The notes under the pieces: generated by a model
Databases searched by the model: none
Seen by the model: the letters and a program-made list of their open reading frames with translations, nothing else
What the model was told of the DNA's origin: nothing
From: a virus
Length of the DNA stretch: 36,093 nucleotides
IMG/VR virus record: IMGVR_UViG_3300033571_008540
Coordinates: 1 to 36,093 of that record
Direction: 5' to 3' (one strand)
Made by a program: the position numbers and the translations under genes
Shown here: piece after piece, positions 1-36,093 of the stretch
Position numbering within the stretch: the stretch's first letter is position 1
Layout: every line of letters begins with the position of its first letter

Positions 1-980
1 AACAACCTGCCCCAGTATTGCATCTGCCCAGCTAGCGACATTGAAGGCTTCAAATCGCTGCCTGATTCAATGCACACGTCAACACCCGATGCCTGCGCTA
101 AATCAAACCCGAAGCCAAGTAAATCGCAAAACGTAATCACCTGAATTTCACGGCGTGCGTAATCCCTAAAAATACGGCGTTGCTCGCTTATATCCGTGTT
201 TCCGTCAACATGCACCGCGACAATGCCAGCGTTTCTAAATTGTTCCGCCACAAGCTGCGAGTGTTTAATACTAGCACACCGCACGATGTGTATCTTCCCT
301 TCGCAGCGCATCTGATAATCACGCACGCAATCACCGATAATCACGCCCTGTGCTTCCATGTAGCCAGCAAGTTCGCCCTTCGCATAATCGCCAGCCGTTA
401 CCTTAATCTGCGATAGGTCTGGCTTTGTTCTACCGTAAAACAGGCGATAATCCGAAAGCCGTTTATTCTCAATTAGCCACGAAATAGGTTTGCCAGTAAC
501 CATCGTATCATACCAGCAACCTAGCCCCTTGCCTGACATTTTCCACGGGGTAGCTGATAATCCTAGAATCCATGAATTAGCAGCTTGGTAATGTCGTATA
601 ACTGAATCTAGCGCACCATCGCCAAAATGCGTTTCGTCGGGAATCAATAAGTCACACTTCGGCAACTTATTTAATCGCCGCGCCATCGTGTCAATCATAC
701 CAATATACACACGGCTAAACGGGTTGTATGTACGCCCAGCCGCAATGAAGCTGTGCGGTATATCTAGCTCGCGGAATGTGTTGCTTGTTTGCTCTAACAA
801 CGCTTTCCTCGGCACTGTAAATATAATCGTGCGGTCTTTATTCTTCGCCGCTTCAATCATGTGCGTTGCCATTCTAGTTTTTCCTGAACCAGTGGCCGAT
901 ACCATAAGCACCAATTTACTTACACGCATCGCCTGCCGCGCATCGTCAACGAGTTCTAGCTGGTCGGAGTATAAATTCAA
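1..980 (-). CDS. SF2 DEAD/DEAH-type DNA helicase, N-terminal part (runs off the window start)
   Basis: Translation of the minus strand from a TTG at 980 gives about 326 residues with no stop to the window edge. Motifs seen: Walker A ATGSGKT (residues 29-35), a DETH box (115-118), motif III SAT (142-144) and a motif VI-like QMQYWGR just before the edge. These define an ATP-dependent superfamily 2 helicase of the kind found in phage replication or recombination modules. The TTG start overlaps the TGA stop of the upstream primase-helicase gene (TTGA), and a GGGGG-containing Shine-Dalgarno lies upstream, so the genes are translationally coupled. The missing C-terminus is supplied by the reading frame at 36093-35758, which continues with a zinc ribbon. 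TTG is chosen because the nearby ATG runs straight into a stop. Confidence 0.9.
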   Translation of the reverse strand, partial: MNLYSDQLELVDDARQAMRVSKLVLMVSATGSGKTRMATHMIEAAKNKDRTIIFTVPRKALLEQTSNTFRELDIPHSFIAAGRTYNPFSRVYIGMIDTMARRLNKLPKCDLLIPDETHFGDGALDSVIRHYQAANSWILGLSATPWKMSGKGLGCWYDTMVTGKPISWLIENKRLSDYRLFYGRTKPDLSQIKVTAGDYAKGELAGYMEAQGVIIGDCVRDYQMRCEGKIHIVRCASIKHSQLVAEQFRNAGIVAVHVDGNTDISEQRRIFRDYARREIQVITFCDLLGFGFDLAQASGVDVCIESGSDLKPSMSLAGQMQYWGRL

Positions 981-3649
981 ATTAACTCATCCCCCTTAAA
1001 CAACGCAATCGGCAAACTAACAGCGCTGGTTTTTACGCCCTTCGCAAAATACACGCATTTTTCTTTGCGGGCATCAGGCACATCAGATAACGTGCGGCTC
1101 CATTTGATTTCCCATTCTGTGCCGCGTAAAACCTTCGCTAAGTTATGGCTACGGCTGGCTATGCATACCGTGTCATCACGCACCGCTATTCCGTAATTTC
1201 TAAGCATTTTATCGGCGTTGCTATCGCGTTCGATGTGTACCATGCTAATTAGCTCACCTATCGACGTTTCAGCGCCGTTGCTGCCATAACGTAGCAGTGA
1301 TTCCGCAATTGTCTGCACCAAGCGCATTGGGTCGCCATCCTGCGCAATAATCGTGTGGTCTGTCCAGTCGTGGCTTGCAATCCATTTTTCTGCTTCCTCC
1401 GGCGATACCTTGCTAGTGCTGCCTAATAAATACAAGCCAGCTAGCATCGTGCCAATCTGCTGCGACGCTCTGGCAGCCTTCAAAACCTTGCGCGATGCCC
1501 GCTGAAACGTCCGGATATTCGCAAGCAAACTATCCATATTTTCTAGCGTTCTAGCTAATAATCGCTCACCGTAATCGTCCGTTATGGTGTCCTCTATGAA
1601 CGCCACCAAATCATCGTACTGTTGCATCGCATTGTGTGCGCGGTTTTTCTTAATCACCATGAAGCTAATGCGGCTTTCATCTGCGGTTTTATCAACGGGC
1701 GGATTGATGGCACTAAAGCACGCACAGAATCGCGCCTTAAACGGTTTCTGCCCGAATTTTTCAACCGTTGCACCCGTTGACGCCTTACGCGCTAACCCGA
1801 TAACGGCTGCCATGCTAGGCGATGGTTCGGCCTCATCAAACACAAGCGGCCTAGCATCATAACCCATCGCGCTGCGAATCGCTGGTTCAGTAGTGCCGCC
1901 ATCCACGTTAAGCGACATACTGCCTAGCACTGGCTTAATAATCCTATCCATCACCGTGGATTTGCCCGACTCAGCCTCGCCCGTAATATAAATGTGCGGC
2001 CTATACTGTAGCGCGGCGCATATCGGGGCAATCACTAGCCAGCCCGCAAGCAACGAGCCACTAAGTTTATTTTCCCAGCTTACGGCCTCGCATATCTTGC
2101 GTAATCTGTGCGCCTCGGCATTCGTAAGCGCGTTATCAGCCGGGCGCATTAAACGCGGCGCTGCTATATAGGTGTGGTGCGATAGATAATCCTTAAAATC
2201 TAGCCGCGTGCCGTTAACATACAGTGAATCGCCGCAGTGCAAAACAACATCACCATTATCAATCCAAGCACCACAACCGCGCACCCTATCGGCTTCTTTA
2301 TATACGCCGCGCTGTTTCGCCAGTTCTAGCAGTGCATTCATGGATAGCAGCGCTATCTTGCTGTGGCTGGCTTTCTCATAGCCAAATTTCGTTTCCCAGT
2401 TATACAGATTATCTAGCTGCAACAGGTTCTGCATGCTGTGCTGACTCGCCGCCAATGCCACAATCTGCCGAGCACCAAACGGGAAATAATAATAGATTCC
2501 GTCATTATAACCCAGCACGCGGTAGTTCATCCCAAAATCACCAACCTGAGATTTACGCACAGGCTCTAGAATTTCACCACCCACGGCGTTGGGGACGGCG
2601 GGAGAGAGAGCCTCGCCGTGGGTGGCTTCTTCAACAGTTTCCTGCCGAATTTCTAACGCATCATTGAATATGCGTTTAATTTCATCGTGGCCAAATCTAA
2701 CGGCGTAATCGTTCCAGTCTGTCGGTTTATCTGCTTCGTTGCCATTGAACGGCGGTTTAATAACCTGCGCGCCACCTATAGCCACAGCCGCTTGTTTAGC
2801 TAATTCTAAACCAACGTTCAAACAAAAATCATTCTCACGCCATTCCGTCCAGCGGTTATCATCGCCTGATAACTTTGCGCGGTCAACATTAGCTGGCCGT
2901 TTCTTAGGGTTGAACGTCCACTGGTCGTTGTCGGCGGCAAATACGAAGCGTGCATCTAGGTATTTCTTTTTAAGCGCCAATGCCACGTTTTTAAGGTTGC
3001 CAGCATCCATCGCTGCAAACACCGCATAACCCGTGGCTTCCTTAATCGATGCGCCTGTTGCCCAGCCCTCGCAGATTACAATAACGCTTAAATCGTCACC
3101 AGCCTTTGCAAACGGCGAATAACCGCCAGCCTTCTGCATCCCCTTATTATAGCCCTTCCATGATTCGGTGATGCGCTGGATGCCTAACATAGCGCCCGAT
3201 GAGGCATAAATCGGAATATATAACTCACCCGTCTTTGCCCTGATTCGCGCATTGTGCGGCTTGATATTCTTTGCGGTTAAGTAAGCGTGGCTGGTTGCTT
3301 TAGGCGCTTTATTGAACAAACGTTTAAGCCAGCCGTCCAGTTTTTTACGCCGCCTTGCATCAAACGCTGCACGCTCTTTCTTCTGATTCTCACGAACCGC
3401 ACGAATCTCTGCTAACTCGGTTTCGCTTAAATCCGTTTTTACCCCGCTTCGAACGCTGTGCGACTGCCCGCTTCGATGGTCAAAAAACCAGCCGCCATTC
3501 TCGTTCATGCAGTACGAAGCACGCTTTTCCGAACGCTTGTCACCGACCACCTGATAATAGCGCGCTTTATCGTCTAGCACTATATCGGCGTGGTTAACAG
3601 GCTCGCAACCAGCTTCACGCATTGCGTTGATTATGTTTTCGGGGGTCAC
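977..3649 (-). CDS. Toprim-primase / DUF927-type helicase fusion
   Basis: 890 residues. The N-terminal third has a Toprim fold signature: CEGWATGAS at 193-201 (catalytic Glu) and AADND at 238-242, as in DnaG/phage primases. The C-terminal half has a P-loop ATPase with Walker A GEAESGKST (557-565) and Walker B LVFDEAE (602-608), typical of DUF927-type helicases. It probably primes and unwinds DNA at the phage fork. No zinc-binding primase domain is obvious at the N-terminus, though the segment around 20-75 could be a recognition domain. The start is GTG at 3649, two bases after the stop of the upstream small gene, with only a weak Shine-Dalgarno. It overlaps the downstream helicase start by four bases. 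Confidence 0.88.
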   Translation of the reverse strand: MTPENIINAMREAGCEPVNHADIVLDDKARYYQVVGDKRSEKRASYCMNENGGWFFDHRSGQSHSVRSGVKTDLSETELAEIRAVRENQKKERAAFDARRRKKLDGWLKRLFNKAPKATSHAYLTAKNIKPHNARIRAKTGELYIPIYASSGAMLGIQRITESWKGYNKGMQKAGGYSPFAKAGDDLSVIVICEGWATGASIKEATGYAVFAAMDAGNLKNVALALKKKYLDARFVFAADNDQWTFNPKKRPANVDRAKLSGDDNRWTEWRENDFCLNVGLELAKQAAVAIGGAQVIKPPFNGNEADKPTDWNDYAVRFGHDEIKRIFNDALEIRQETVEEATHGEALSPAVPNAVGGEILEPVRKSQVGDFGMNYRVLGYNDGIYYYFPFGARQIVALAASQHSMQNLLQLDNLYNWETKFGYEKASHSKIALLSMNALLELAKQRGVYKEADRVRGCGAWIDNGDVVLHCGDSLYVNGTRLDFKDYLSHHTYIAAPRLMRPADNALTNAEAHRLRKICEAVSWENKLSGSLLAGWLVIAPICAALQYRPHIYITGEAESGKSTVMDRIIKPVLGSMSLNVDGGTTEPAIRSAMGYDARPLVFDEAEPSPSMAAVIGLARKASTGATVEKFGQKPFKARFCACFSAINPPVDKTADESRISFMVIKKNRAHNAMQQYDDLVAFIEDTITDDYGERLLARTLENMDSLLANIRTFQRASRKVLKAARASQQIGTMLAGLYLLGSTSKVSPEEAEKWIASHDWTDHTIIAQDGDPMRLVQTIAESLLRYGSNGAETSIGELISMVHIERDSNADKMLRNYGIAVRDDTVCIASRSHNLAKVLRGTEWEIKWSRTLSDVPDARKEKCVYFAKGVKTSAVSLPIALFKGDELI

Positions 3650-8143: not shown

Positions 8144-8150
8144 GGGGATT

Positions 8151-8318: not shown

Positions 8319-8332
8319 CCAATTAATTACTA

Positions 8333-8361
8333 TTGACAATGCGTCGCATTCGCAATAATAT
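8333..8361 (+). promoter_or_regulatory. Strong rightward promoter for the head genes
   Basis: TTGACA (8333-8338) and TAATAT (8356-8361) with exactly 17 bases between them, a near-consensus sigma-70 promoter in the 104-base gap between the small basic gene and the portal gene. The leader of about 55 bases carries no obvious gene. Confidence 0.75.
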
Positions 8362-8422
8362 CTCGCTTGTGCAGTCGCGGCGGTAACACGCATTAGGATA
8401 GCACCCACAACAAAGGGTGATT

Positions 8423-11457: not shown

Positions 11458-11458
11458 A

Positions 11459-12922: not shown

Positions 12923-12924
12923 AC

Positions 12925-13329: not shown

Positions 13330-13342
13330 TTAACGCTTGCAA
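13328..13342 (+). repeat. 15-bp repeat, copy 2
   Basis: Identical to 6400-6414 (AATTAACGCTTGCAA). Here TTGCAA is followed after about 17 bases by TATATG, which overlaps the scaffold start codon, so its use as a promoter for the scaffold gene would give almost no leader. A protein site is equally possible. Confidence 0.45.
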
Positions 13343-13362
13343 CTTAGAAGGAATATGTTTAT

Positions 13363-14244: not shown

Positions 14245-14255
14245 GGAATCTAATC

Positions 14256-15509: not shown

Positions 15510-15517
15510 CACTAACG

Positions 15518-15543
15518 GGGGGCGGTGCCGTTGAACCGCCCCC
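15518..15543 (+). terminator. GC-rich hairpin after the coat gene
   Basis: GGGGGCGGT (15518-15526) pairs perfectly with ACCGCCCCC (15535-15543) around an 8-base loop, eight bases after the coat stop. The sequence after the stem (TAATAACTTT) is only weakly T-rich. It is therefore more likely a partial terminator or an mRNA-protecting 3' end than a full stop. Confidence 0.55.
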
Positions 15544-15567
15544 TAATAACTTTATACAGAGGAAATC

Positions 15568-16101
15568 ATGGCTAAAAATACAGTAAAATACGAAGGCACG
15601 TTTGGTGCCGATAACCGCAAGGTGATTAACGATAACTTCGCGGATATTTCGCGGGTTACAACCGCATTCAGCCAAACAAGCAGCACCACCCTTGCAAACG
15701 TTGTCGGGCTTTTGACCGATACGTTACAACCTGGTGTTTACGCTGTAGACATTAATCTTATCACGACTTCAGGTGCATCAGGCGGCGTCAAAGTTGCCCT
15801 CAAATGGGGCACTGCTTCGATGATTACCGCAACGGCCTTGTCTGTACAAGCAAACGCCGCTGCTGCAACCGCTAACACGACCTTCACAACTTCAACGGAT
15901 GCAGCATCGATTCTTGCAAGCACCGCAGCGATTGTGAACGTGCGTATTACTGGAACCATCACCGTAGCACTGGCTGGCACGTTGCAATTACAGGCTGCAC
16001 AGAACGCATCGGATGCCACAGCAACCACGGTTGCTCTGGGTTCAACGATAAGCTTTGCTGCAATCGGTGCAACTACGCCGCTTAGCTCTGCTATTGTATA
16101 G
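15568..16101 (+). CDS. Probable head decoration protein
   Basis: 177 residues, Ala/Thr/Val-rich, almost free of Cys and Trp, and beta-rich by pattern (PGVYAVDINLITTSG, VNVRITGTITVALAGTLQLQ). Such composition in the gene after the coat protein is typical of capsid decoration or stabilising proteins. AGAGGAAA precedes the ATG. No named family recognised. Confidence 0.62.
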   Translation: MAKNTVKYEGTFGADNRKVINDNFADISRVTTAFSQTSSTTLANVVGLLTDTLQPGVYAVDINLITTSGASGGVKVALKWGTASMITATALSVQANAAAATANTTFTTSTDAASILASTAAIVNVRITGTITVALAGTLQLQAAQNASDATATTVALGSTISFAAIGATTPLSSAIV

Positions 16102-16109
16102 GGGGAGTC

Positions 16110-16403
16110 ATGACGTTTAGCACGAAAACAATTTCGACTGCTATATCGGCATCAACTACATCGGCTTCGGCTGCTATCCCATCAACGGGCGCGCAGTTTA
16201 TTCGAGTAGTAAACCCGACAACCGCGTTATGTTATGTGGCAACTGGTGCTGGCTCTGCTACTGCAACCGCTGCGAATATCGCAGTGGGGGCATATAGCAC
16301 TGAAGTATTGCAGATTGCAACGGGTGATACTCACGTTGCAGTTTTGCTATCAACGGGAACTGGCACCATTCCAGTTTCAAGATGCACTCAATCGAGCGTG
16401 TAA
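16110..16403 (+). CDS. Small beta-rich structural protein
   Basis: 97 residues, rich in Ser, Thr and Ala with alternating strands (QFIRVVNPTTALCYVATG, STEVLQIATGDTHVAVLLS). Resembles the capping or decoration proteins found beside phage coat genes; could pair with the preceding 177-residue protein. AGGGGGAG precedes the ATG. Its stop is directly followed by the next start. Function not proven. Confidence 0.58.
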   Translation: MTFSTKTISTAISASTTSASAAIPSTGAQFIRVVNPTTALCYVATGAGSATATAANIAVGAYSTEVLQIATGDTHVAVLLSTGTGTIPVSRCTQSSV

Positions 16404-17093
16404 ATGACCACAGCCCGCGACATTATAACAAGGTCGCTTCAGAAAATAGGCGCGATTGTGAAGAACGAAGTTCCCGCTGCTGATGAAGCAAACGATGGCT
16501 TAAATTCTCTCAACGCGCTTATTTCTTCATGGAGTAATGATTCGCTGAATATTTACGCCAGAACGTGGGAAACATTCTCGCTTACTGGCGCATCAAGTTA
16601 TACTATCGGCACAGGCGGCAACTTCAACACGGCACGCCCTACTAATATCGTGGCGGCGTACCTTAGAAGCGGCACGATTGATTACCCGATAGATATTATC
16701 GACGATGCTGCCTATGTGAGCATTTCGTATAAAAACTTGCAGGGCATTCCAGAGTTTTTGAATTATGATAACGGCTACCCACTAGGCCGCATTCGTTTAT
16801 ATCCCCTAGACAACGCGGGTTATAGCTTATTCTTGCTAACTGAAAAAGCCGTTAGCCAGTTTGCAACACTAGACACAGATATGTCGCTTCCCGATGGATG
16901 GGAGCGTGCGCTTATTTACAATCTAGCCTTAGAACTAGCCCCCGAATATAGCCAAAAGCCCGATGCGTATATCGTAAAAATCGCCAATGATTCACTTGGC
17001 GCGATTCGGCAAAAAGTAGCGCAAGTCCGCACAATGGACGCATACCCTAGTAACTTAGCTGTAAGGAATATATTTAGCGGCTGGAGATACTAG
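16404..17093 (+). CDS. Tail accessory / head-tail adaptor, P22 gp4-like
   Basis: 229 residues. The start TTARDIITRSLQKIGAI...AADEANDGLNSLNALISSW matches the helical N-terminus of P22 gp4-type tail accessory factors, which bind the portal after packaging. It is longer than P22 gp4 (166 residues); the extra part is beta-like (FSLTGASSYTIGTGG). The stop shares a base with the next GTG. The position before the gp10-like gene is the P22 order. Confidence 0.8.
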   Translation: MTTARDIITRSLQKIGAIVKNEVPAADEANDGLNSLNALISSWSNDSLNIYARTWETFSLTGASSYTIGTGGNFNTARPTNIVAAYLRSGTIDYPIDIIDDAAYVSISYKNLQGIPEFLNYDNGYPLGRIRLYPLDNAGYSLFLLTEKAVSQFATLDTDMSLPDGWERALIYNLALELAPEYSQKPDAYIVKIANDSLGAIRQKVAQVRTMDAYPSNLAVRNIFSGWRY

Positions 17094-18493
17094 TGAAGAT
17101 TAAGCTTGTCGGCCCCTCATATCAACAGCGCTCGCTACCATTTGACGCGCAACGAACAATCAATCTATTCCCGATTACAGATAAGGATGGCTCAGATGTT
17201 GCGTCATTACTTGGAACGCCCGGTTTATCTTTGTTTGCCACGTGTGGTGCAGGTGTGGTTCGCGGCGGATTCGCTTCTGGTAATGGTCGCGTGTTCTTTG
17301 TTTCAAATAACCAGCTTTACGAATTAGATAGCGGCGGCGGTTCAACTGTACGCGGCACGATTACTTCATTCTCTGGAGCCGTGACGTTTGCTGATAATGG
17401 TTTGCAACTAGGAATATGCGATGGGGATAAAGCTTACACGTTTACTTACGCAAGCAACGTATTCGCACAAATAACGGATGCGGATTTTCCAACCGTTGTG
17501 GGAACCATAGATTTTATCGATGGCTATTTTGTTGTCAACGAAAAAGACACTGGCAAGTTTTATATTTCGGCGCTGTACGATGGCACGTCATGGGCTGCAC
17601 TGGATTTTGCAACGGCTGAATCCTCGCCAGACAGATTAGTGCGCGTTGTTAATTTCGTGGGGCAGCTTGGCTTGCTTGGCGAAAGCACGCTAGAAATATG
17701 GCGCAATACAGGGGATAGCACGTTTCCATTTTCGCGCATTTCTGGCTCTACACCTGTTGGCACTGTATCGCCATACACGGTGATTAGCATCGACACATCG
17801 GTGTATTGGGTTGGCAGCAACAATCAAGGCAACGGCGTAGTTTATCAAGCGCAAGGGTTCACGCCTACTAGAATTTCCACAGAAACCATTGAACGCCTGT
17901 TGCAAGCCGAGCCTAATCCTGAGTTATTGCGCTCGTGGACCTATCAGCAAGATGGTCACGTTTTCTTAGTAATTACAGGCGGCGCGCTGGAAACTTCGCT
18001 AGTTTATGATTTGTCAACTGGTTTATGGCACGAACGGGCGTTTTTAAATGAATTTGGCGGGTATGAGCAACACCTAGGAAGCTGCTGCATTTATGCGTTC
18101 GGCAAGCACTTGGTAGGCGATAGAACTAACGGCAACATTTACGAGATGAGCCTAACCGTTTACAGCGACAACGGCAGCGCCATACAAAGACGCCGAGTTT
18201 ATACGCATCTGCTTGACGAATTAAAGCCTGTGCGCTACAATCAACTCACGATAGGTTTTGAGCAAGGTGTCGGTTTGCAAACTGGACAAGGCTCTAACCC
18301 TCTGGTGTCTTTACGAATCAGTAAAGATGGCGCAAGAACGTGGAGTAATTACTACACCACATCCATTGGCGCAGTGGGCAATTACACAACAGAAGTCACG
18401 TTTAGGCGCTTAGGCATTCAACAGATATGCACATTTGAGCTTACTATATCCGACCCTGTTAAGGTTGCTATCACGGGGAGCTATTTGCAATGA
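17093..18493 (+). CDS. Packaged DNA stabilisation protein, P22 gp10-like
   Basis: 466 residues, very near P22 gp10 (472). Signature N-terminus: YQQRSLPFDAQRTINLFP followed by SLLGTPGLSLFA, then repeated beta-propeller-like strands (NNQLYELDSGG, VGQLGLLGESTLEIWRNTGD, SVYWVGSNNQGNGVVYQAQG). In P22 this hexamer plugs the portal and carries the tail needle. GTG start with GGAG eight bases upstream, overlapping the gp4 stop by one base. Confidence 0.9.
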   Translation: MKIKLVGPSYQQRSLPFDAQRTINLFPITDKDGSDVASLLGTPGLSLFATCGAGVVRGGFASGNGRVFFVSNNQLYELDSGGGSTVRGTITSFSGAVTFADNGLQLGICDGDKAYTFTYASNVFAQITDADFPTVVGTIDFIDGYFVVNEKDTGKFYISALYDGTSWAALDFATAESSPDRLVRVVNFVGQLGLLGESTLEIWRNTGDSTFPFSRISGSTPVGTVSPYTVISIDTSVYWVGSNNQGNGVVYQAQGFTPTRISTETIERLLQAEPNPELLRSWTYQQDGHVFLVITGGALETSLVYDLSTGLWHERAFLNEFGGYEQHLGSCCIYAFGKHLVGDRTNGNIYEMSLTVYSDNGSAIQRRRVYTHLLDELKPVRYNQLTIGFEQGVGLQTGQGSNPLVSLRISKDGARTWSNYYTTSIGAVGNYTTEVTFRRLGIQQICTFELTISDPVKVAITGSYLQ

Positions 18494-18921
18494 CACGCGC
18501 ACTAGTGCCGCCGAAAACTGAGCCGATTGTCGATAAAAAAGACAGTTTTGCAACGCTTAATTGGTTAGTGTTTTTTGACCAGCTAGCAGATGGTGACTCA
18601 GGCACAGCGTGGACTCCTACTTTTGTAGGGCTTACTGAAGTAGGCACAGCAACAAAAACTGGCGTCTATTACAGAATCAGCAAAAAGCTAGTTTACTATA
18701 GAATCGTAATCACGCCCGGCACGAATACCAGCGCAGTTAATGGCACAACATATTGCGACAATTTCCCGCTAACTATGACAGGAAACGGCGCAAACATAAC
18801 ATGCAGCGGATTTACGGCATCAACGGCAGGCACAACATCAGCAGACAAACGAATTTACACGGCCACATGGTCATTAATCACAACCGCAATCACAATCGTT
18901 GGAATAGCAGAGGTACAATAA
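18490..18921 (+). CDS. Unknown structural protein after gp10
   Basis: 143 residues, Thr/Ala-rich beta pattern (WTPTFVGLTEVGTATKTGVYYRISKKLVYYRIVITPG). This Y-R-I strand arrangement occurs in small phage tail or fibre domains. A tail needle would normally follow gp10, but this protein lacks the long coiled coil of P22 gp26. Starts by ATGA overlap with the gp10 gene and ends sharing a base with the next ATG. Confidence 0.6.
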   Translation: MTRALVPPKTEPIVDKKDSFATLNWLVFFDQLADGDSGTAWTPTFVGLTEVGTATKTGVYYRISKKLVYYRIVITPGTNTSAVNGTTYCDNFPLTMTGNGANITCSGFTASTAGTTSADKRIYTATWSLITTAITIVGIAEVQ

Positions 18922-20039
18922 TGGAACCAGAAATAATGCAGCAAATGCAAGCGCCTGAAGATATGGGGCGTTCAACTGATACGGTGCTAGGTCACTTATC
19001 GCTTGGTGAAGTGGTTATTCCGCGTGCATTGCTTGACGACCCGCAGGCGCTAGAAATGCTGCAAGCGTTGTTTGCAGAATATGAAATGGATATAGCGGAA
19101 TTTACCGTTGGCGACCCTGCTAACAAAATCAATCCAGAAACGGGTTATCCTGAGTTTTTCGGCAAGAAATTGCGTAAGATTTTTAAAGCCGCCGCACCCG
19201 CTGCTTTGGCATATTTCGCACCGGGTATCGGCACTGCATTAGGCAGCTCGTTGTTAGGCGCTGGCGCGGCTGGTGCATCTACGCTAGGTAGCGGGTTAAT
19301 TGGTGCAGGTATCGGCGCATTAGGTGGCGGAGGATTAAAAGGCGCACTAACAGGTGCGGTTACTGGCGGCATTGGCGCAAACATTGGAAGCTTGCCGGGA
19401 GCGCTACAGGGGCCAACGCAATCAGGTGCGCCACTAAAGGGAACGTCTAGCGGCTCCGGCATTCTAGGTTCAATAGGCAGAGCAACTGGCATTTCAAGTA
19501 ATAAATTACCATCACTAGGAGGATTAGTAGGCGGCTCAAGTGGCGGTGGCTCGTCATTCTCGCCGCTTGGTATTGCTGCTAACTTATACGGCGGCTCGTC
19601 ACAGGATGCGGCCATTAAGAAGCAGCAAGAGCAGCTTTTGAATGCGAATCAATCGCAACTAGCAAATCTGGAAACATTCGACCCTAGCAATATCACAAAC
19701 GATGCTGGCTATCAGTTTAACCTAGAACAAGGGCAGCAAGGGCTAAATCGTGGCTTGGCTGCCGAGGGTTCGGTATTCTCTGGACGGGCGCTTAAAGCTG
19801 CCGCTGAGTATAACCAGAATTACGCAAACAACGCGTTTGATTCGGCATACCAGCGCTGGCTGCAAAAAACACAGGGCAAGAACGCACTCATTGGTGCGGG
19901 CGGTGATGTGCGCGCCAATGCAACGGGTGCAAAAGCGCAGAATTTATCGCAGTCGCTTAGCAACGCAATTGGCTCACCAGTGGGCGCGTATGGGCAAAAC
20001 AGCCAGCTTGAATTGTTGAAACGCTTAGGATTGGCATAG
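18921..20039 (+). CDS. Ejection-type internal virion protein 1
   Basis: 372 residues. After an acidic N-terminus come PEFFGKKLRKIF and AAPAALAYFAPGIGTALG, then about 120 residues of Gly/Ala/Ser-rich sequence; this pattern is typical of phage proteins ejected with the DNA (P22 gp7/gp20/gp16 group). The C-terminal part is Gln/Asn-rich with NDAGYQFNLEQGQQGLNRGLAAEGS..SGRALKAA, a motif often seen in such proteins. The ATG at 18921 has AGAGG upstream; the frame is open further up, but that overlaps the previous gene out of frame. Confidence 0.75.
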   Translation: MEPEIMQQMQAPEDMGRSTDTVLGHLSLGEVVIPRALLDDPQALEMLQALFAEYEMDIAEFTVGDPANKINPETGYPEFFGKKLRKIFKAAAPAALAYFAPGIGTALGSSLLGAGAAGASTLGSGLIGAGIGALGGGGLKGALTGAVTGGIGANIGSLPGALQGPTQSGAPLKGTSSGSGILGSIGRATGISSNKLPSLGGLVGGSSGGGSSFSPLGIAANLYGGSSQDAAIKKQQEQLLNANQSQLANLETFDPSNITNDAGYQFNLEQGQQGLNRGLAAEGSVFSGRALKAAAEYNQNYANNAFDSAYQRWLQKTQGKNALIGAGGDVRANATGAKAQNLSQSLSNAIGSPVGAYGQNSQLELLKRLGLA

Positions 20040-26294: not shown

Positions 26295-26773
26295 TTGCGT
26301 TATTATCGACGTTATTAGGGTTTTTAGCGAGCGCCGCGCCTAAGGTTTTTGAGTCGTTCCAAGATAGGCGCGACAAGGCGCACGAGCTTAAAATGCTCGA
26401 AATCCAAGCCAAGATGCAGGCCGAGAAATCTAGCGCTGATTTAGATGCGATTTTACTAAACGCCGTTAGCGCGCAGAATGTTGCAACACAGGCAAGCTAT
26501 CAAGCGGATATGGCGGCGAATAAGGAAGTCGGCAACCGCAAGATTATCGCGTTTTCTGCTAGCGTGCGGCCTGTTATTACCTACGCATTTTTCCTGCTTT
26601 ATGCGCTGGTTAAATTCGCGCAGTTTTACCTTATTATTAACCCAGCGCTACCGTGGCAGGAATCAGGCAATTACGCGCAGGCATTGGTGGCAATATGGGG
26701 CGAGGAAGATATGGGGCTGTTTTCTGCGGTGCTAGCGTTCTGGTTTGGCAATCGCATCATGCAACGGAAATAA
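26291..26773 (+). CDS. Putative holin, two or more membrane spans
   Basis: 160 residues. An N-terminal hydrophobic helix (IALLSTLLGFLASAAP), then a charged coiled-coil-like stretch (RRDKAHELKMLEIQAKMQAE) and two C-terminal hydrophobic segments (VRPVITYAFFLLYALVKFAQFYLI; MGLFSAVLAFWFGNRIM). This layout, with an RP just before the first C-terminal span, is typical of phage holins of the three-span type. It would form the membrane hole that releases the endolysin encoded next. AGGGG precedes the ATG. Confidence 0.75.
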   Translation: MIALLSTLLGFLASAAPKVFESFQDRRDKAHELKMLEIQAKMQAEKSSADLDAILLNAVSAQNVATQASYQADMAANKEVGNRKIIAFSASVRPVITYAFFLLYALVKFAQFYLIINPALPWQESGNYAQALVAIWGEEDMGLFSAVLAFWFGNRIMQRK

Positions 26774-26774
26774 T

Positions 26775-27206
26775 ATGCGCCTGTCTAAACGTGGCGCCGA
26801 TTTAATCAAGCATTACGAAGGCTATGAGTTAGAGCCTTATATTTGCCCCGCTGGCTATTGGACTATCGGCTGGGGGCATCGTATTAGCGACGAGGAGCGT
26901 TTTAAGTTATCGGCAGGAATATCGATAACAGAGGCGCAACAGCTATTTGATTATGACATAGCGCGGTTTGAGCGCGGAGTTTTGCGACTAATAACGCGGC
27001 CTATGACACATGGGCAGTTTGATGCGCTGGTATCGTTTAGCTTCAATTTAGGGCTTGGCAGGTTGCAGGCGTCAACGCTGCGAGCAAAATTCAACCGTGG
27101 CGAATATGCAGGCGATGAATTGCCTAAATGGGTATTTAGTAAGGGCATCAAGCTAGCGGGGTTGGTAAAACGCCGCTATGCCGAAAAAGCGCTGTTTGAC
27201 GCATAA
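26775..27206 (+). CDS. Endolysin, GH24 lysozyme
   Basis: 143 residues. GH24 (T4/P22 lysozyme-type) fold with the catalytic segment HYEGYELEPY..C.AGYWTIGWGH: Glu15 is the general acid and Thr30 aligns with T4 Thr26. The position of T4 Asp20 is Cys24, a substitution I know from many phage lysozymes (LCPAG type). It hydrolyses the peptidoglycan backbone. There is no signal peptide or SAR segment, so export needs a holin. The ATG at 26775 is chosen (GGA about eight bases upstream); the frame is open 30 bases further only via a TTG overlapping the holin gene. Confidence 0.9.
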   Translation: MRLSKRGADLIKHYEGYELEPYICPAGYWTIGWGHRISDEERFKLSAGISITEAQQLFDYDIARFERGVLRLITRPMTHGQFDALVSFSFNLGLGRLQASTLRAKFNRGEYAGDELPKWVFSKGIKLAGLVKRRYAEKALFDA

Positions 27207-27214
27207 AAAGCTAA

Positions 27215-27232
27215 GGCCACCTTTCGGTGGCC
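27215..27232. terminator. Hairpin after the late operon
   Basis: GGCCACC (27215-27221) and GGTGGCC (27226-27232) pair around a 4-base loop, nine bases past the endolysin stop. On the plus strand no T-tract follows; on the minus strand TTAGCTTTTT follows, so the site fits a leftward terminator best but may also end the late mRNA. Confidence 0.6.
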
Positions 27233-27263
27233 CTAGACCCACAGCAAGCTATGGGGGATATTG

Positions 27264-27290
27264 AAAAAAAGCCCGCGTTTTAAGCGGGCT
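27264..27290 (-). terminator. Rho-independent terminator for the leftward unit
   Basis: On the minus strand AGCCCGC (27284-27290) pairs with GCGGGCT (27270-27276) around a 7-base loop and is followed by seven T (27264-27270, sharing its first T with the stem). It is a textbook intrinsic terminator, just past the last leftward gene, and it would keep early transcription out of the late operon. Confidence 0.85.
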
Positions 27291-27315
27291 AAGCTATCCC
27301 AGACAAGAGAGAAGT

Positions 27316-27432
27316 TTATCGTATAGCAATAATACCCGCGTTGTCAACCTTCACGATATTTTTCGTGTATAGTGGCAATGGTTTGCTTACCGAGCAACCA
27401 GAAACAAGCAATATAACCAGAATGTAGCGCAT
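27316..27432 (-). CDS. 38-residue lipoprotein candidate
   Basis: ATG at 27432, TAA at 27316-27318. The first residues (MRYILVILLVSGC) form a short signal peptide with a lipobox (LVSGC, Cys13); after lipidation a 26-residue tail with KPLPLY would remain in the periplasm. It is the last possible leftward gene, 27 bases after the previous stop and 26 bases before the terminator. No clear Shine-Dalgarno is present, so translation needs proof. It is a candidate outer-membrane spanin-like or exclusion protein by analogy only. Confidence 0.5.
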   Translation of the reverse strand: MRYILVILLVSGCSVSKPLPLYTKNIVKVDNAGIIAIR

Positions 27433-27459
27433 AGGCGCATACTAGCAGCATAATCATAA

Positions 27460-27642
27460 CTAACCATTGCTGTTATTGCATAGGGGGTATGCATTAGACT
27501 TAAGAATAGCATCGGCGATTAATACGTCAATCGCTGCCCTGATTTTGCGGAATGTTTCAACATCGTTTTTATCTACATTGGCAATCGTGTGAATAACGTA
27601 CCCGCGCAAATTGCCTTCCCATTGTCCAAAATCATGCGTCAT
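27460..27642 (-). CDS. Unknown 60-residue protein
   Basis: Start set at the second of two close ATGs (27642, MTHDFGQWEG), because GAGG sits nine bases before it; the first ATG (27651) is hard against GAGG. The protein looks helical (FRKIRAAIDVLIADAILKS) with an Asn-rich C-terminus. It overlaps the preceding gene by eleven bases. Family not recognised. Confidence 0.58.
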   Translation of the reverse strand: MTHDFGQWEGNLRGYVIHTIANVDKNDVETFRKIRAAIDVLIADAILKSNAYPLCNNSNG

Positions 27643-27925
27643 TTTCTTCATCCTCTGGCTCGAATTGTATCACCGTTTCCGGCGTGCTTATCGCTAGGCT
27701 GGCTTCCATCAGTGCGCCCATCATTTCAAGGCGGTTTTCATCAAAGCAAACCTGTGACGCGCTAACTTCAACCTCGCCGTTATCAATAGTTATGATTGAC
27801 AACGGCAAATCCACGGCATCGGCAAGCTGCACCAGAAAAGCAATAGTTTTAACTATATCGTCTGGCAAGTGCGATTTTATTTCAGCGTTATGCTCTGGGT
27901 GTAAGTCAATGATTTTTTCGTTCAT
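27632..27925 (-). CDS. Unknown acidic 97-residue protein
   Basis: Start set at 27925 (MNEKIIDLHPEH), which overlaps the upstream stop by ATGA and has AGG about eight bases before it; a longer frame overlaps the exonuclease gene. Helix (DDIVKTIAFLVQLADAVD), two strands (LSIITIDNGEVEVSAS), a second helix and a very acidic tail (EPEDEEND). The acidic end suggests binding to basic protein or DNA mimicry, but that is speculative. Cytoplasmic. Confidence 0.62.
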   Translation of the reverse strand: MNEKIIDLHPEHNAEIKSHLPDDIVKTIAFLVQLADAVDLPLSIITIDNGEVEVSASQVCFDENRLEMMGALMEASLAISTPETVIQFEPEDEENDA

Positions 27926-29052
27926 AGCTTTACCTGTTTTTCTGAAAATGATGAAACAGCGCCGCAATCACCGCAACGAAACTGTGGGCGCTTGGTGCTT
28001 GCAGTCATTTCGTAACCTATTAGCCTAAGATTATCGTTTCCGCATGTTTTACAGCGATTCACAGCGTCATCAATAAACTTATTCATATTAATCTTTTTGC
28101 TAAATTGCGGTTGCAATTTCAGAAACACCGCTTCTAGCAAATCCACATCTTGCACGTTATAAGCGGCCATTTCTTCAATCGCGCTAGGTTCGTTATTTGC
28201 GCAACCTACCCACAGATGCGCGTCGGTTTTGTTTTTTCTGCCAAGCCCCAAAACGTCGCCTAAATGGTCTAGGCGGTTGCTATTAAGCGAGCGCCCAAAC
28301 TTCTTTTTAGCTATCTTGTAGGTGTCAAGAATCATTTTATTAGGCAGTGGCGGCAAGCCATTAACCTGCAAGCGCGCATCAATAAACGGCACGTCAAAGC
28401 CATCCGCATAATGCCCTACCACATAATGCGCTTGCTCATATTCGGGAAAAAACACTTCTAACAAGCCGCCATCCTTATACGCTTCATCCATGATTAAAAC
28501 ATGAGTTTGCGTATCGCCAAGCCATTTATACGCTAGAGTGCAGATAGATTTTGCGCGCTTAATAAACGCGGTAGGAATTGGCATTTTTGAGAATGTATCA
28601 AAAAAATAACCCTCGTTTGGGAGGGTTTCAATATCAAATAGTAGCGTTCTGCATTCATCGAATTTGCTTGACTTTGGGATATAACCACCCCCACCCTGTG
28701 CGTCCACAGGGTCAGCATGTGAACTCATGCTGACGGAATTCACTTCATGGCGGTTATTGCCAGAAAGGTTTGCGGGGCTATTCTGTATAAGCGCCTTCAC
28801 GGCCTGCAAATCCGCTGGTATTTTAACGGGGGCAGGCGCGGCGTCAAAATAATTCGTTAATCCCTTTTCACGAATCAAGCATTTTGCCTCGGTGGGTAAT
28901 CTTGCTATGTGCGCCAGTAGGTTCTTAGCGCGCCCGTAAAGCGTGTTATATTTGATGCCGTATTTCGTTGCAATTACGTCTAGCGGGGCATCGGCATTTA
29001 TCCACTCAACCACAGCCTGCTTTATTTTTTCATCAGAGTGCTTAACGGTCAT
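27922..29052 (-). CDS. HTH + DnaQ-like 3'-5' exonuclease + zinc ribbon fusion
   Basis: 376 residues. Residues 1-50 look like a homeodomain-like HTH (KQAVVEWINADAPLDVIATKYG, then LYGRAKNLL). The middle is an RNase H-fold exonuclease of the DEDD type: LLFDIETLP (DIE at 140-142), VGHYADGFDVPF (213-223) and AAYNVQDVDLLEAVF (Exo III-like, about 296-310). The C-terminus has Cys at 334, 337, 360 and 363, a zinc ribbon. The exonuclease could trim DNA ends or RNA; the HTH and zinc ribbon would target it. Start: GAGGAA before the ATG. Overlaps the following gene by ATGA. Confidence 0.82.
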   Translation of the reverse strand: MTVKHSDEKIKQAVVEWINADAPLDVIATKYGIKYNTLYGRAKNLLAHIARLPTEAKCLIREKGLTNYFDAAPAPVKIPADLQAVKALIQNSPANLSGNNRHEVNSVSMSSHADPVDAQGGGGYIPKSSKFDECRTLLFDIETLPNEGYFFDTFSKMPIPTAFIKRAKSICTLAYKWLGDTQTHVLIMDEAYKDGGLLEVFFPEYEQAHYVVGHYADGFDVPFIDARLQVNGLPPLPNKMILDTYKIAKKKFGRSLNSNRLDHLGDVLGLGRKNKTDAHLWVGCANNEPSAIEEMAAYNVQDVDLLEAVFLKLQPQFSKKINMNKFIDDAVNRCKTCGNDNLRLIGYEMTASTKRPQFRCGDCGAVSSFSEKQVKL

Positions 29053-30336: not shown

Positions 30337-30683
30337 TTCACCCTCTCAATGCTAGGCTCGCCATCGGTAAGGGTGACTTTGTAAATGTGCTTAAACTTTT
30401 CAAAATATGGCATGTAGGGCGATGCGTTATCTGGCGGAAGAAAATTGCCATACTGATATTCAATATGCACCACAGGCTCCGGCTTTGGCTCGATGCGGAT
30501 GATGTCGAAACCCCACCCACATTCATCCCGTAACCACTTCCCGTCCAGACTCCAAGCCCCTGTATAATACCCAAAAGCTACAAGTGAACCCCACTCATAG
30601 CATTGCTGTACAGGAATCACTGCGCCGTTTTCAAGATGCAGCTTATCGCCAGCTTTGATTTTTGTTGTGTCGATGCTAGTCAT
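30333..30683 (-). CDS. Unknown 116-residue protein
   Basis: Opens TSIDTTKIKAGDKLHLENGAVIPV, a strand-turn-strand pattern of small phage proteins with SH3-like barrels, then Trp-rich turns (WSLDGKWLRDECGWGFDI). AGAGGAGCAACC leads into the ATG. The end (SIERVK) overlaps the next gene. No domain name can be given. Confidence 0.62.
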   Translation of the reverse strand: MTSIDTTKIKAGDKLHLENGAVIPVQQCYEWGSLVAFGYYTGAWSLDGKWLRDECGWGFDIIRIEPKPEPVVHIEYQYGNFLPPDNASPYMPYFEKFKHIYKVTLTDGEPSIERVK

Positions 30684-31021
30684 TGGGTTGCTCCTCTTTG
30701 TTTAGCTAGGTGTTTGGCGTATTTTCTCACGTCTGCTATGTTTCTAATAGGCCACTTTTTACCATTCTTCTCAATAATCATGCCACCCTTAGCCATATTG
30801 CGACATTCACACAGATAGTATGATGCCAGCGAATCGCCCAATATCTCATCGAGCAATTTCACAAGGTTACCTGCAATGCCCTGCGTCATAATGTTTTGGT
30901 GCGGGTGAAAGTCGCCGTACAGGTCTTTGAGTGTTTGGTTCACTGATAACAGCGCATCCTCATCGGCTTCCATTAGTTGCAGCATTTCGCAGGCGTGTTC
31001 TATCAGTTTTGTGTTAGTCAT
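30680..31021 (-). CDS. Unknown 113-residue protein
   Basis: Helical N-terminal part (LIEHACEMLQLMEADEDALLSVNQTLKDL), one CEC pair, and a basic C-terminus (RKYAKHLAKQRG). GGGAGCAACC precedes the ATG, matching the leader of the next gene downstream. Overlaps its neighbours by 4 and 8 bases. Function unknown. Confidence 0.62.
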   Translation of the reverse strand: MTNTKLIEHACEMLQLMEADEDALLSVNQTLKDLYGDFHPHQNIMTQGIAGNLVKLLDEILGDSLASYYLCECRNMAKGGMIIEKNGKKWPIRNIADVRKYAKHLAKQRGATQ

Positions 31022-31190
31022 TGGGTTGCTCCCTTAATTCTGTTGGGGCTTTATCGTAATCTACGTCAATCCAATCATATGTTCCCGCAAGTGATGAACT
31101 AATGCCAGATGGAAAACAGTGCCATCGCTGTAAAACGCTTTTTCCAAACAGGCCGCGCCTAACTCTGTACCTAGTTGTTTTATTGCACAT
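31014..31190 (-). CDS. Unknown 58-residue protein
   Basis: Start placed at 31190 (MCNKTTRYRV), where the ATG shares one base with the stop of the gene above (TGATG); an extension four codons longer overlaps that gene. N-terminal part is very basic (RYRVRRGLFGKSVLQR), the rest acidic and Tyr/Trp-containing (YDWIDVDYDK). Likely cytoplasmic; unknown. Confidence 0.55.
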   Translation of the reverse strand: MCNKTTRYRVRRGLFGKSVLQRWHCFPSGISSSLAGTYDWIDVDYDKAPTELREQPND

Positions 31191-32439: not shown

Positions 32440-32799
32440 CTACTCCTTCATCGCTGCGTTGAGTTCGGTTAGCACTTGACGTGCGAGCTTGATTTTAGCG
32501 CCGCTGTCAGTTTCATAGCCTGAGAAAACAGCTATCGCGCCTTGCGCCTTCAATACTATAGCCTCCAACCGCTTAATCTTCTCGGCCTGTGCTGCAACAA
32601 CGCGTGCCATTAGTGGGGCAGCGGACTCAAAAGCAGCCCGCGCAAGTCTTTTATAATCAAACAAATCTGTTTCTTCTATAATTTGCAGAATATAATCTTC
32701 ATCGGCGCTTGTATTTTGCTCAGATGCAATCTTGTAATCCTCCGCTTTAATAGCATCGCACATCAGCTTCACTGCTTCGTCTATCTCAGTCTGGTTCAT
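32440..32799 (-). CDS. Unknown helical 119-residue protein
   Basis: Start at 32799 (MNQTEIDEAVKLM), with AGGAGA and an ATGA overlap with the gene above. Helices at 4-20 and 38-115, Ala/Lys/Glu-rich (AAQAEKIKRLEAIVLKAQGAI). Resembles small phage proteins that form coiled-coil dimers. Not recognised. Confidence 0.62.
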   Translation of the reverse strand: MNQTEIDEAVKLMCDAIKAEDYKIASEQNTSADEDYILQIIEETDLFDYKRLARAAFESAAPLMARVVAAQAEKIKRLEAIVLKAQGAIAVFSGYETDSGAKIKLARQVLTELNAAMKE

Positions 32800-33506
32800 A
32801 CTTTCTCCTGTGTAATCGCTGTATCTTGTGGATTGTGTCTGCCCGACTCTGCATGCCACGTTTGCGGTTGCATGACGCGGTAAGCCTTCAACGCTTCTGG
32901 GTTAGGCTTCACAAAGCTGTCATCCTTCCATAGAATCCTATTGTTCGGCATGGCTGCAATCTGGCCGCTGCCGTCTTCGAGAAGCAACAGGTGGTAGCAC
33001 TTATGCTCTGGCGGGTACTGGCTAAAACCGTTGTCTGTGTGGTCAAGTGTGAACCAGTAGCTTGCTGGTATCATTCGGCCATCTGGTGTTCGGTATTCGC
33101 AGCTCATTTCGCGTAGGTACTCGTACTGCACCGTTGAAAAATCCCAGCCGTGGCAATCCCAGCATTGCAGGTCACTAATTGGATGCGGCGCTGGCTTCGG
33201 GTTTAATTCTACAGAGTCGCCATTTTTCACGCGATGGTAATCTTCTTCAGATAACGCGTACACCATAAACGGGCGCATAACATTCCTTGGTTTTTCCCAG
33301 CGCAGCTTATGAATAGGTATGCGCGCCCACTGCGCCCCGCTCTCGCATAGAATCGAGAAGTGAAGAGCGCGACTTGGAATGCTAGTAACGCCAATAATCA
33401 CACACGGCTCAAATCCCAATGAGTCGTCTAACCCACGCAAGATATCGGTTTGCACATACCCATATAAATGTTGAGGTACAGATGCGTTAAGTGTGTAGTG
33501 TGTCAA
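32796..33506 (-). CDS. Conserved-looking phage protein of unknown function
   Basis: 236 residues from a TTG at 33506, selected for its AGGGGAG Shine-Dalgarno six bases upstream; an in-frame TTG at 33557 falls at the possible promoter and has none. N-terminal half with PSRALHFSILCESGAQWARIPIHKLRW is a segment I recall from hypothetical phage proteins, without known role. Middle has CWDCHGWDFS (Cys, His) then ASYWFTLDHTDNG...EHKCYHLLLLEDG.GQIAAMPNNRI. His and Cys count suggests metal binding. Overlaps the next gene by ATGA. Confidence 0.65.
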   Translation of the reverse strand: MTHYTLNASVPQHLYGYVQTDILRGLDDSLGFEPCVIIGVTSIPSRALHFSILCESGAQWARIPIHKLRWEKPRNVMRPFMVYALSEEDYHRVKNGDSVELNPKPAPHPISDLQCWDCHGWDFSTVQYEYLREMSCEYRTPDGRMIPASYWFTLDHTDNGFSQYPPEHKCYHLLLLEDGSGQIAAMPNNRILWKDDSFVKPNPEALKAYRVMQPQTWHAESGRHNPQDTAITQEKV

Positions 33507-33530
33507 CGTTTTCTCCCCTATCCCGTTTTC

Positions 33531-33557
33531 AATATAGCAACCGTTGCACCAAGTCAA
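33531..33557 (-). promoter_or_regulatory. Possible internal leftward promoter
   Basis: TTGACT (33552-33557) with TATATT (33531-33536) on the minus strand, spaced 15 bases; TATTGA at 17 is an alternative. It lies between the XRE regulator gene and the 236-residue gene, next to the site a regulator might use. The spacing is short, so it is uncertain. Confidence 0.32.
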
Positions 33558-33560
33558 TCA

Positions 33561-33761
33561 CTATTTACGCTTTTTGCCACAAACATAATCAAGCCCAATC
33601 ATAGCGTAGGCCAATAACCTAGAAATAGGCAATTCACCAGTTTCTTTATAGGTTATGTTTCGCTTGCTGGCTTCAAATTCATCTGCAAGTCGCTGCTGGC
33701 TAAATCCATGCTTCTTACGGATTTCGCGCATTTTGTCTGGTGTTATATCGTCTGGCTTCAT
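33561..33761 (-). CDS. XRE/Cro-type HTH regulator
   Basis: 66 residues. The helix-turn-helix follows the XRE pattern: MREIRKKHGFSQQRLADEFEASKRNITYKETGELPISRLLAYA (positions about 11-53; quoted in parts), with the Q-x-x-L-A core and the KETGE turn before the fourth helix. Small Cro-like proteins bind operators as dimers. It overlaps the preceding gene by ATGA. It could control the possible promoter at 33531-33557. There is no lysogeny gene nearby, so it is not a convincing prophage repressor. Confidence 0.75.
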   Translation of the reverse strand: MKPDDITPDKMREIRKKHGFSQQRLADEFEASKRNITYKETGELPISRLLAYAMIGLDYVCGKKRK

Positions 33762-34369
33762 GCTGGAATTTCCTCGTCGTTAAAATTAATCTCGGTGGTG
33801 GCGTTTATAATATCGTTATACAGCCCAGAATATGCATTTCTGAAGCGCTCAATAACTGCGGCCTCACGTTGCAAAATCGCGTCAACGTCACCTCCCGCTT
33901 GAATCTCTGCAATAATCTCTGCGGCCTTCTTTTTGGCGGCATCGGATTTGTCCACCTTAGGCGCACTCGCAGATTCCACTAACAACTTAACCGTGTATGG
34001 CTTTTTGCTTTGCTTGCTTGCCGTTAGCGACATGGTTAAATCGTGCGGAATATCCGACATATGGCTAATGCGTATGCCGCCCACTTCAGCGCCCGCCCAT
34101 GTAACCTTAGGGTCACGAAATAGCGTTAGTTTCTTGCCTACCCATTTTTCGGCATACTTACCCCACGCATGCACAAAAACCCGCGTCATGCTTTTGCATG
34201 GATAGTACGGCTTGCCATTGTCACCGATATAGCTGACCGCCACGGGTTGCTCACCTTGCCGCTTGCTAACCTTGCTAATTTCAACCGTTATCGGGCCAGC
34301 AATCAAATCATCAGCGTTTAGCTGGTCTGATTTCGGTTTAATGGCATCAGTTACATCAATTTGCGTCAT
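33758..34369 (-). CDS. Conserved phage protein paired with YqaJ exonuclease
   Basis: 203 residues. It shows a pattern I recognise from unannotated phage proteins: LNADDLIAGPITVEIS, GKPYYPCKSMTRVFVHAWGKYAEKWVGKKLTLFRDPKVTWAG, then VGGIRISHMSDI; the C-terminal third is charged helix ending in an acidic tail. The first part looks like a beta-barrel, perhaps OB-like. Coupled by ATGA to the YqaJ exonuclease, so a single-strand annealing or ssDNA-binding partner is plausible, as in Red-type pairs, but no named annealing family signature is visible. GAGGAG precedes the ATG. Confidence 0.68.
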   Translation of the reverse strand: MTQIDVTDAIKPKSDQLNADDLIAGPITVEISKVSKRQGEQPVAVSYIGDNGKPYYPCKSMTRVFVHAWGKYAEKWVGKKLTLFRDPKVTWAGAEVGGIRISHMSDIPHDLTMSLTASKQSKKPYTVKLLVESASAPKVDKSDAAKKKAAEIIAEIQAGGDVDAILQREAAVIERFRNAYSGLYNDIINATTEINFNDEEIPA

Positions 34370-35049
34370 ACAACAATCTCCTCTTCAATTTTACGTTCGG
34401 TTGGTATTAGGCGGTAGTTTTTATCCGCTAATTTTGCTTCATATTCCGCCATAAGTTTGCTTAGCTTTTCATGAAATACGGTTGCGGCTTCAACAATCGC
34501 AGCCTGTATCTTTTCGTCTGGATATACGCGCAACGTAAGCATGGGCAACCCCGCGCTATAGGTGATGTAGTCAATCCATTTGCGCTGCGTCACCAGCAAG
34601 CCAGTCTGTAGCTGTAGCATATATTCATCAGGCGCGACGTTTTCCAAAATACTCTGCACCTGAAACTTCTGGCGGCGTGACTTGATTTCTATTAGGCCAT
34701 CTTCACCAACTAAACCATCAGGTGAGAAGCCAATGGTAAAGCCGTGGTCATCGTTTAGCACTATCCCGCATTCATCCACTTGCTCGTAATTATCCGAATA
34801 AATATCACGCGCATCAGCTTCGTCAGACATACCGCGCAACATATCTTCGCTAATATAGCTAGGCTCGGTAAAGCCAGTGATGCGTTGCGCCAGTAATTCA
34901 TAAACGTGGGCGCGCTCTTTATCGTTGCTGGCAATTTTTAGCGTAGGCGTTAAAATAGTTTTAACCTCGCTTGCCGTAAGTATGCCGCAGCGTATAGCGT
35001 GCCATTCATCCGAACCCTGCACGATGTCGTTTCTGTAAATAATAGCCAC
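34366..35049 (-). CDS. YqaJ-family phage recombination exonuclease
   Basis: 227 residues. The lambda exonuclease/YqaJ fold is clear: GSDEWHAIRCGILTASE near the start (12-28), FSPDGL with Asp111, GLIEIKS with Glu121 and Lys123, and YMLQLQ with Gln146. These form the two-metal active site for 5'-3' degradation of dsDNA ends. GTG start at 35049, sharing a base with the stop of the small membrane gene, with GGGG upstream. Overlaps the partner gene by ATGA. Confidence 0.92.
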   Translation of the reverse strand: MAIIYRNDIVQGSDEWHAIRCGILTASEVKTILTPTLKIASNDKERAHVYELLAQRITGFTEPSYISEDMLRGMSDEADARDIYSDNYEQVDECGIVLNDDHGFTIGFSPDGLVGEDGLIEIKSRRQKFQVQSILENVAPDEYMLQLQTGLLVTQRKWIDYITYSAGLPMLTLRVYPDEKIQAAIVEAATVFHEKLSKLMAEYEAKLADKNYRLIPTERKIEEEIVV

Positions 35050-35416: not shown

Positions 35417-35761
35417 TTATTGCACTATTTTTTTTGCGTCCTCTGTACTGCGCGCAACGCCAGCTTTTCCGCCATTTTGTAGCACAAACGCAATAAAATC
35501 TTTCTGTGCAATCGACGGATAGCCCTTATCGGTTTTTACTTCAATCGCTGTAAATATAGGCACAGTCTGGCCTACCATATCAGGAGTAATTGTAACCCGC
35601 GTAAACCCGATTAAATCCGATGCGCCAGACGCAAGCAAACCAGCGGCGATTCTGCGCTTGCCGTCCTCGCTGCGAAAATTCCCGCGCACGTTTTTCCAGA
35701 TAACGCAATCGTTTTTTGCAGCGTCTAACCGTATCGTTTGCACTATGTTGCTCTCGCTCAT
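35417..35761 (-). CDS. VRR-NUC domain nuclease
   Basis: 114 residues, the whole protein being one stand-alone VRR-NUC domain. Motifs: GLLASGASDLIGF (Asp49), FTAIEVKT (Glu74, Lys76) and AQKDF (Gln86), the PD-(D/E)XK metal site; the end has GGKAGVARS. Stand-alone VRR-NUC proteins act as structure-specific nucleases and sit beside helicases in phages. Its start overlaps the stop of the helicase gene by ATGA. Confidence 0.88.
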   Translation of the reverse strand: MSESNIVQTIRLDAAKNDCVIWKNVRGNFRSEDGKRRIAAGLLASGASDLIGFTRVTITPDMVGQTVPIFTAIEVKTDKGYPSIAQKDFIAFVLQNGGKAGVARSTEDAKKIVQ

Positions 35762-36093
35762 TTTGCGCCCCTTGCCTTTATAACGTTAATTGCCCAGCCG
35801 TGTGGGTTCTTCATTCCGCGCTGTTTACCTAGCGCCACCAGCTCGTTATAACTACGCGCTGCACCTTGCGCCTTTTTACGTTCCATTTTTTGCGCTTGCC
35901 TATCTTCCTTTGTAGCCTCGATTAGCTCGCCCTCGACTTCATCAATTTCGCGTGAATTAATCGGATAAATATAGCCACAATTCGGGCAAACTGGCGCTGG
36001 CCTGTGTGCTGTGTAGCATTTGTCGCACTGCCTAACTGCAACCGTTTTTTCACTGGATGCGCGTTTAGTCTGCACCCTATCTTCTAGCGTCCA
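35758..36093 (-). CDS. SF2 helicase, C-terminal part (enters from the window end)
   Basis: The minus strand is open from the edge: 111 residues starting WTLEDRVQTKR, where 'WTLE.R' is a common linker near the end of phage DEAD/DEAH helicases. A zinc ribbon follows (CDKC about 15 residues later, then CPNCG), then an acidic and basic helical tail. I take it as the second half of the helicase at 980-1. Joined directly, the halves are out of frame, so the linking stretch is not in the window. The first in-frame Met is at 36075, but it lies inside the helicase pattern, so it is not the real start. Overlaps the VRR-NUC gene by ATGA. Confidence 0.85.
   Translation of the reverse strand, partial: WTLEDRVQTKRASSEKTVAVRQCDKCYTAHRPAPVCPNCGYIYPINSREIDEVEGELIEATKEDRQAQKMERKKAQGAARSYNELVALGKQRGMKNPHGWAINVIKARGAK

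Follow-up and report, generated by a model that had tools for sequence, protein, structure and literature searches.

The two ends of a 36,093-nt virus contig (IMG/VR record IMGVR_UViG_3300033571_008540, analysed over its whole length and hereafter called the window) hold adjoining parts of one SF2 helicase gene, and the gene order closes across them. We consider that the window is very probably the near-complete genome of a circular or circularly permuted phage, in which an intact helicase gene was opened by the assembly with the loss of about 82 nt. The tailed-phage genome would be about 36.18 kb long, either circular or linear and circularly permuted, and the window would represent almost one copy of it, opened by the assembler inside an ordinary SF2 helicase gene. 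The phage's own copy of the gene would be intact and the loss a matter of assembly; the assembly may have stopped there because co-occurring strains formed a variant bubble, because coverage dipped, or through an assembler artefact. The genes around the join are listed in the table.

Table. Genes on both sides of the join, in minus-strand order
Feature	Position	Strand	Basis
Toprim primase / replication protein	977..3649	minus	Pfam Toprim_3 5.3e-10; phrog_35358 DNA primase 3.2e-106
Helicase N-terminal part (SF2, RadD-like)	1..980	minus	326 open codons (980-3), TTG start at 980; bases 2-1 (TT) left over
Helicase C-terminal part	35758..36093	minus	111 codons and stop; aligned in frame to the intact tails of relatives
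VRR-NUC nuclease	35417..35761	minus	Pfam PF08774 1.3e-07
YqaJ-type recombination exonuclease	34366..35049	minus	Pfam PF09588 1.1e-15
phrog_11517 protein, function not assigned	33758..34369	minus	After the exonuclease here and in relatives

The N-terminal part has the features of an SF2 helicase with two RecA domains, including sequences that we take to be a Walker A motif (ATGSGKT), a DExH box (DETH) and an SAT motif. It matches Pfam ResIII (1.8e-18) and Helicase_C over their cut-offs, and also DEAD. Among PHROGs it matches the helicase family phrog_16 (5.1e-53), a broad family of phage DNA helicases with 986 profile positions, of which the match covers 271-560. The C-terminal part has a frame that is open right up to the contig end at base 36093. 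It carries a four-cysteine motif (C-x2-C-x9-C-x2-C), in line with the zinc ribbon that the earlier note had placed at the right end, and a conserved tail (G-M-K-N-P-H-G-W-A), and its stop codon overlaps the next gene. The C-terminal part alone matched no family in Pfam, PHROGs or NCBIfam, and its profile gave weak matches among solved structures (best E 0.061, mostly ribosomal protein L32). Since it has no family model, this part was compared against relatives instead. Its codon use is a mild outlier, with 3% of sampled in-frame pieces lying equally far from the genome average, and is much nearer to that of in-frame than of out-of-frame pieces. When the ends are joined directly, the sequence reads ...TTG TTT GGA CGC TAG, with the stop two codons past the codon that spans the join; this is exactly the frame shift and TAG described earlier. 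The accompanying claim that 3k+1 missing bases would restore the frame is also correct, since two bases are left over on the N-terminal side.

In relatives, both parts belong to one gene. The first 20 loci, from which the window was excluded, came from two scans of viral contigs, one per part, and from three GenBank phage records. In all 20, the N and C matches share strand, open frame and order, and the C-terminal part aligns to the tail of the phrog_16-matching gene itself. A broader search, for which the query was an alignment of intact relatives, gave 80 loci, 79 of which have one frame with both parts, the exception being L098, which had no C match. Five further loci were taken from genome contigs, bringing the total examined to 105, and both parts lie in a single uninterrupted frame in 101 of them (95 distinct). 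A C-part match was undetected in L098, L104, L105 and L106, and no locus was dropped for a break. On these sequences an intact helicase gene is the rule among relatives, and 101 of 105 is not an unbiased frequency, since the queries were gene parts or intact genes and the count is favourable by construction. The earlier note had proposed one helicase gene split by the window ends and had named a family comparison as the check for separate proteins; the relatives, with both parts in a single frame, bear out its proposal.

The alternative that the ends come from two separate helicases, with a missing stretch of several kilobases, has a precedent in Synechococcus phage S-LBS1, where two annotated SF2 helicases lie about 1 kb apart with a methylase between them. 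We regard this as very unlikely here, since a second helicase of the same kind was found near the gene in none of the 95 distinct relatives (stretch examined, median 7.3 kb). Moreover, each of the five nearest relatives has both parts in a single frame with a spacing of 84 nt, and the points where the left-end part stops and the right-end part starts are neighbours in one family alignment, without overlap. The congruence of N and C relatedness has little power to separate the two cases: the rank correlation is 0.374, where true pairs have a median of 0.365, and in this weak test the C-terminal part of the window ranked 32nd of 96, the median for true pairs being 16.

The spacing between the two parts in one gene was counted where the N alignment reaches residue 326, in 37 of the 95 distinct relatives. 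It is 84 nt in 21 of these, 90 nt in six, 168 nt in five, 93 nt in two, and 87, 102 and 147 nt in one relative each. All five relatives nearest by the N-terminal part (L002, L023, L003, L019 and L024) have 84 nt, and the spacing is divisible by three in 20 of the first 20 loci. Since two of the 84 nt are already in the window as the left-over bases, the best estimate from these relatives is a missing stretch of 82 nt (27 x 3 + 1). The length of about 100 bp put forward earlier is too high, since the corresponding spacing of 102 nt is found in one of the 37 relatives against 21 with 84 nt. Five of the first 20 loci (L008-L012) have 28 extra residues directly after motif VI, with a spacing of 168 nt and not 84. 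An assembler k-mer overlap trimmed from both ends was also considered and is not favoured. The CheckV authors describe end repeats of 55, 77 and 99 bp, lengths equal to assembler k-mers (PMC8116208). Lengths of 77 and 99 are not of the form 3k+1, and a trimmed k-mer of 55 would give a spacer below any seen.

The gap would be larger than 82 nt if an intein, an intron or another insert were located at motif VI and had thereby caused the assembly to break. Such inserts tend to favour conserved motifs, the true gap size is not fixed by anything inside the window, and homing endonucleases are annotated elsewhere in the record of one relative (MW202485). However, the 95 distinct relatives contain no such insert, their spacing between alignments ranging from 84 to 168 nt, which makes this explanation highly improbable. 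Scans of the window for tRNAs and Rfam families gave no match, though the missing stretch itself lies outside the window. We give similarly little credence to the specific form in which some members of the population carry an intein or self-splicing intron at the motif VI arginine and this forked the assembly.

The reading of one ordinary gene opened by the assembly is consistent with the organization of the neighbouring genes. Along the minus strand, the window has the order primase, helicase N-terminal part, join, helicase C-terminal part, VRR-NUC, a small gene, YqaJ and phrog_11517. The coding strand is unchanged across the join, and the GC skew is continuous through it (-0.171 in the first 2 kb and -0.145 in the last full 2-kb bin). 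Four-base overlaps connect the primase with the helicase start (TTGA) and the helicase stop with VRR-NUC (ATGA). Four relatives (L004-L007) have primase, helicase, VRR-NUC, YqaJ and phrog_11517 in this order, all on one strand. In 63 of the 95 distinct relatives the best VRR-NUC match is on the helicase strand and downstream of the intact gene, and no relative has it elsewhere. The primase match is upstream on the same strand in 31 of the 95; in 11 it is downstream, and in two it is upstream but on the opposite strand. For YqaJ, 18 relatives have the match downstream and one has it upstream, in both cases on the helicase strand, and a further four have it upstream on the opposite strand.

Several other features were observed in the window. 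The minus-strand gene at 32796-33557 received the PHROG label 'ferredoxin' on residues 126-240 (4.2e-31), a label that may be wrong, and its protein matched nothing in Pfam or NCBIfam. A 21-nt direct repeat (95%) at 30674-30694 and 31012-31032 lies at the starts of two successive minus-strand genes. The 376-residue product of 27922-29052 (minus strand) has a DNA polymerase exonuclease-like domain (phrog_403, 6.9e-51), and Pfam and PHROG reported no polymerase domain in it. Two terminator-like stem-loops on the minus strand (27211-27290) lie near the convergence of two gene blocks; the promoter and terminator scan covered 26700-28000 only.

The break falls within motif VI, whose pattern we take to be Q-x-x-G-R-x-x-R. 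The Q, the G and the first arginine are present at the left end, and the second arginine lies inside the gap; the earlier statement that the left end carries motifs I to VI thus holds except for the end of motif VI. In the relative L002, the second arginine is R328. This residue is invariant in the eight sequences of alignment A1, and the invariant positions past the break also include L327, A334, I336, D338, N342 and G347 (L002 numbering; the list is partial). In the structure model of L002 (mean pLDDT 76.2, pTM 0.70), the gap corresponds to residues 327-354, which follow the helix 316-326 and contain the strand 334-338. Its position makes this strand the closing one of the second RecA domain. 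The tail past the gap, with the four cysteines and the closing helices, is modelled at low confidence, with several blocks below 60. Since the last arginine of motif VI and the closing RecA strand both fall in the gap, a functional motor is unlikely to be formed by either part on its own.

The closest solved structures are those of the E. coli repair protein RadD (PDB 6jde, 7r7j and 8h5y), the best match of family profile A1 (1.9e-43). RadD is also the top structural match of the L002 model (VIA-align Z 29.1, rmsd 4.9 over 336 residues), although it is tied in this comparison with other SF2 motors such as 7egb_6 (Z 29.0). A phmmer search of solved structures with the N-terminal part of the window at E 1e-10 found none. 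The phage protein is not RadD itself: the NCBIfam RadD model scored 48.3 bits for the N-terminal part and 43.0 for L002, against a cut-off of 720. In addition, RadD has two tandem zinc fingers, with eight cysteines, after its RecA domains (PMC9049331), whereas the phage tail has four cysteines in all. The spacers of L002, L003 and L019, three of the five nearest relatives, contain one cysteine or none, and a second zinc finger in the missing stretch is therefore unlikely. RadD is reported to speed RecA strand exchange, with unwinding so far undetected (PMC9049331, PMC10238739, PMC8887467), and to bind the SSB tail through three arginines (PMC10238739). We infer only that the phage helicase may work like a RadD-type motor. 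It would be a RadD-like SF2 motor that binds and hydrolyses ATP through its two RecA domains and also has one zinc ribbon and a conserved tail at the C terminus, and it would act beside the primase, the VRR-NUC nuclease and the YqaJ exonuclease in replication and recombination.

Two relatives are particularly close to the window in the helicase region. MW202485.1 (Caudoviricetes sp. ctHz2215; complete, circular, from Manatee Spring) is 56% identical in the N-terminal part and 49.5% in the C-terminal part, with 84 nt between the parts in one open frame. Its helicase is directly preceded by the primase and directly followed by VRR-NUC; unlike in the window, the gene is intact and internal to the record. 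When the 41 window sequences were compared with MW202485.1, the helicase being counted as two, matches were confined to the primase, the two helicase parts and VRR-NUC. L002 (IMGVR_UViG_3300020045_011632) is 66% identical in the N-terminal part and 44% in the C-terminal part, also with 84 nt between them, and like the window it has the YqaJ and phrog_11517 genes after the helicase. It differs in its intact gene and in being a 16.9-kb contig, and a VRR-NUC match between its helicase and YqaJ was not found.

The contig ends have no exact direct repeat of 5-200 nt, and closure is thus without direct proof. This absence is compatible with circularity where an assembly stops short. The repeats of at least 20 nt in the window comprise two short direct families only, neither of which is at the ends. 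Exact searches of viral contigs, with the two ends as a pair separated by 60-90 nt and with the ends singly, gave no match and hence no bridging contig, and a megablast search of window positions 1-20000 against phages gave no match. The claim that the genome is circular or permuted and nearly closed is nevertheless supported, since the join is flanked by the genes that neighbour the helicase in relatives. On sequence alone, a circular molecule, a permuted linear molecule and a head-to-tail concatemer all fit.

The portal of the window is of the P22 type (1.1e-134), and portals of this type go with headful, permuted packaging. The nearest records of TerL are from two Pseudanabaena phages, Pan3 and Pam1, each of which was deposited as circular; the packaging class of Pam1 is left without an assignment in PMC9382816. 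A further alternative is that the window ends are physical ends, either fixed virion ends (cos) or an attachment site within the helicase gene. Library coverage often falls at physical DNA ends, and here one gene contains both ends. We nevertheless find this extremely unlikely, since the type of the portal suggests headful packaging, the window yielded neither a tyrosine integrase nor a serine resolvase domain, and a break at this place is seen in none of the 105 loci, a count favourable by construction.

Comparison with other phages (L019, L131 and L132) reveals a mosaic genome. MW202485 shares only replication genes with the window. For Pam1 and Pan3 the shared proteins are TerL, the head closure protein and one or two more, and the closest matches of the portal are in other phages. 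A 4.8-kb contig from metagenome 3300037507 (L107, IMGVR_UViG_3300037507_003158) matches the terminase and portal region, with 88.9% and 81.1% DNA identity to window positions 6706-10656. This identity indicates that related strains exist, and nothing ties it to the assembly break. The interval between terL and the portal gene is about 390 nt longer in L107 than in the window, suggesting that a small segment was gained or lost in one of the two.

With a gap of 82 nt, the window would be approximately 99.8% complete (36,093 of about 36,175 nt). A pair of contig-end fragments that belong to a single family and leave a gap of 3k+1 bases is a useful test, which can show near-closure where repeat-based tests fail. 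The record is most likely an almost closed genome rather than that of a phage with a broken helicase gene, and the helicase should be annotated as one gene, not as two proteins or a pseudogene. The split brings no new biology: the gene is an ordinary one in which a nearly closed phage contig begins and ends, and the minus-strand replication block is one unit across those ends.
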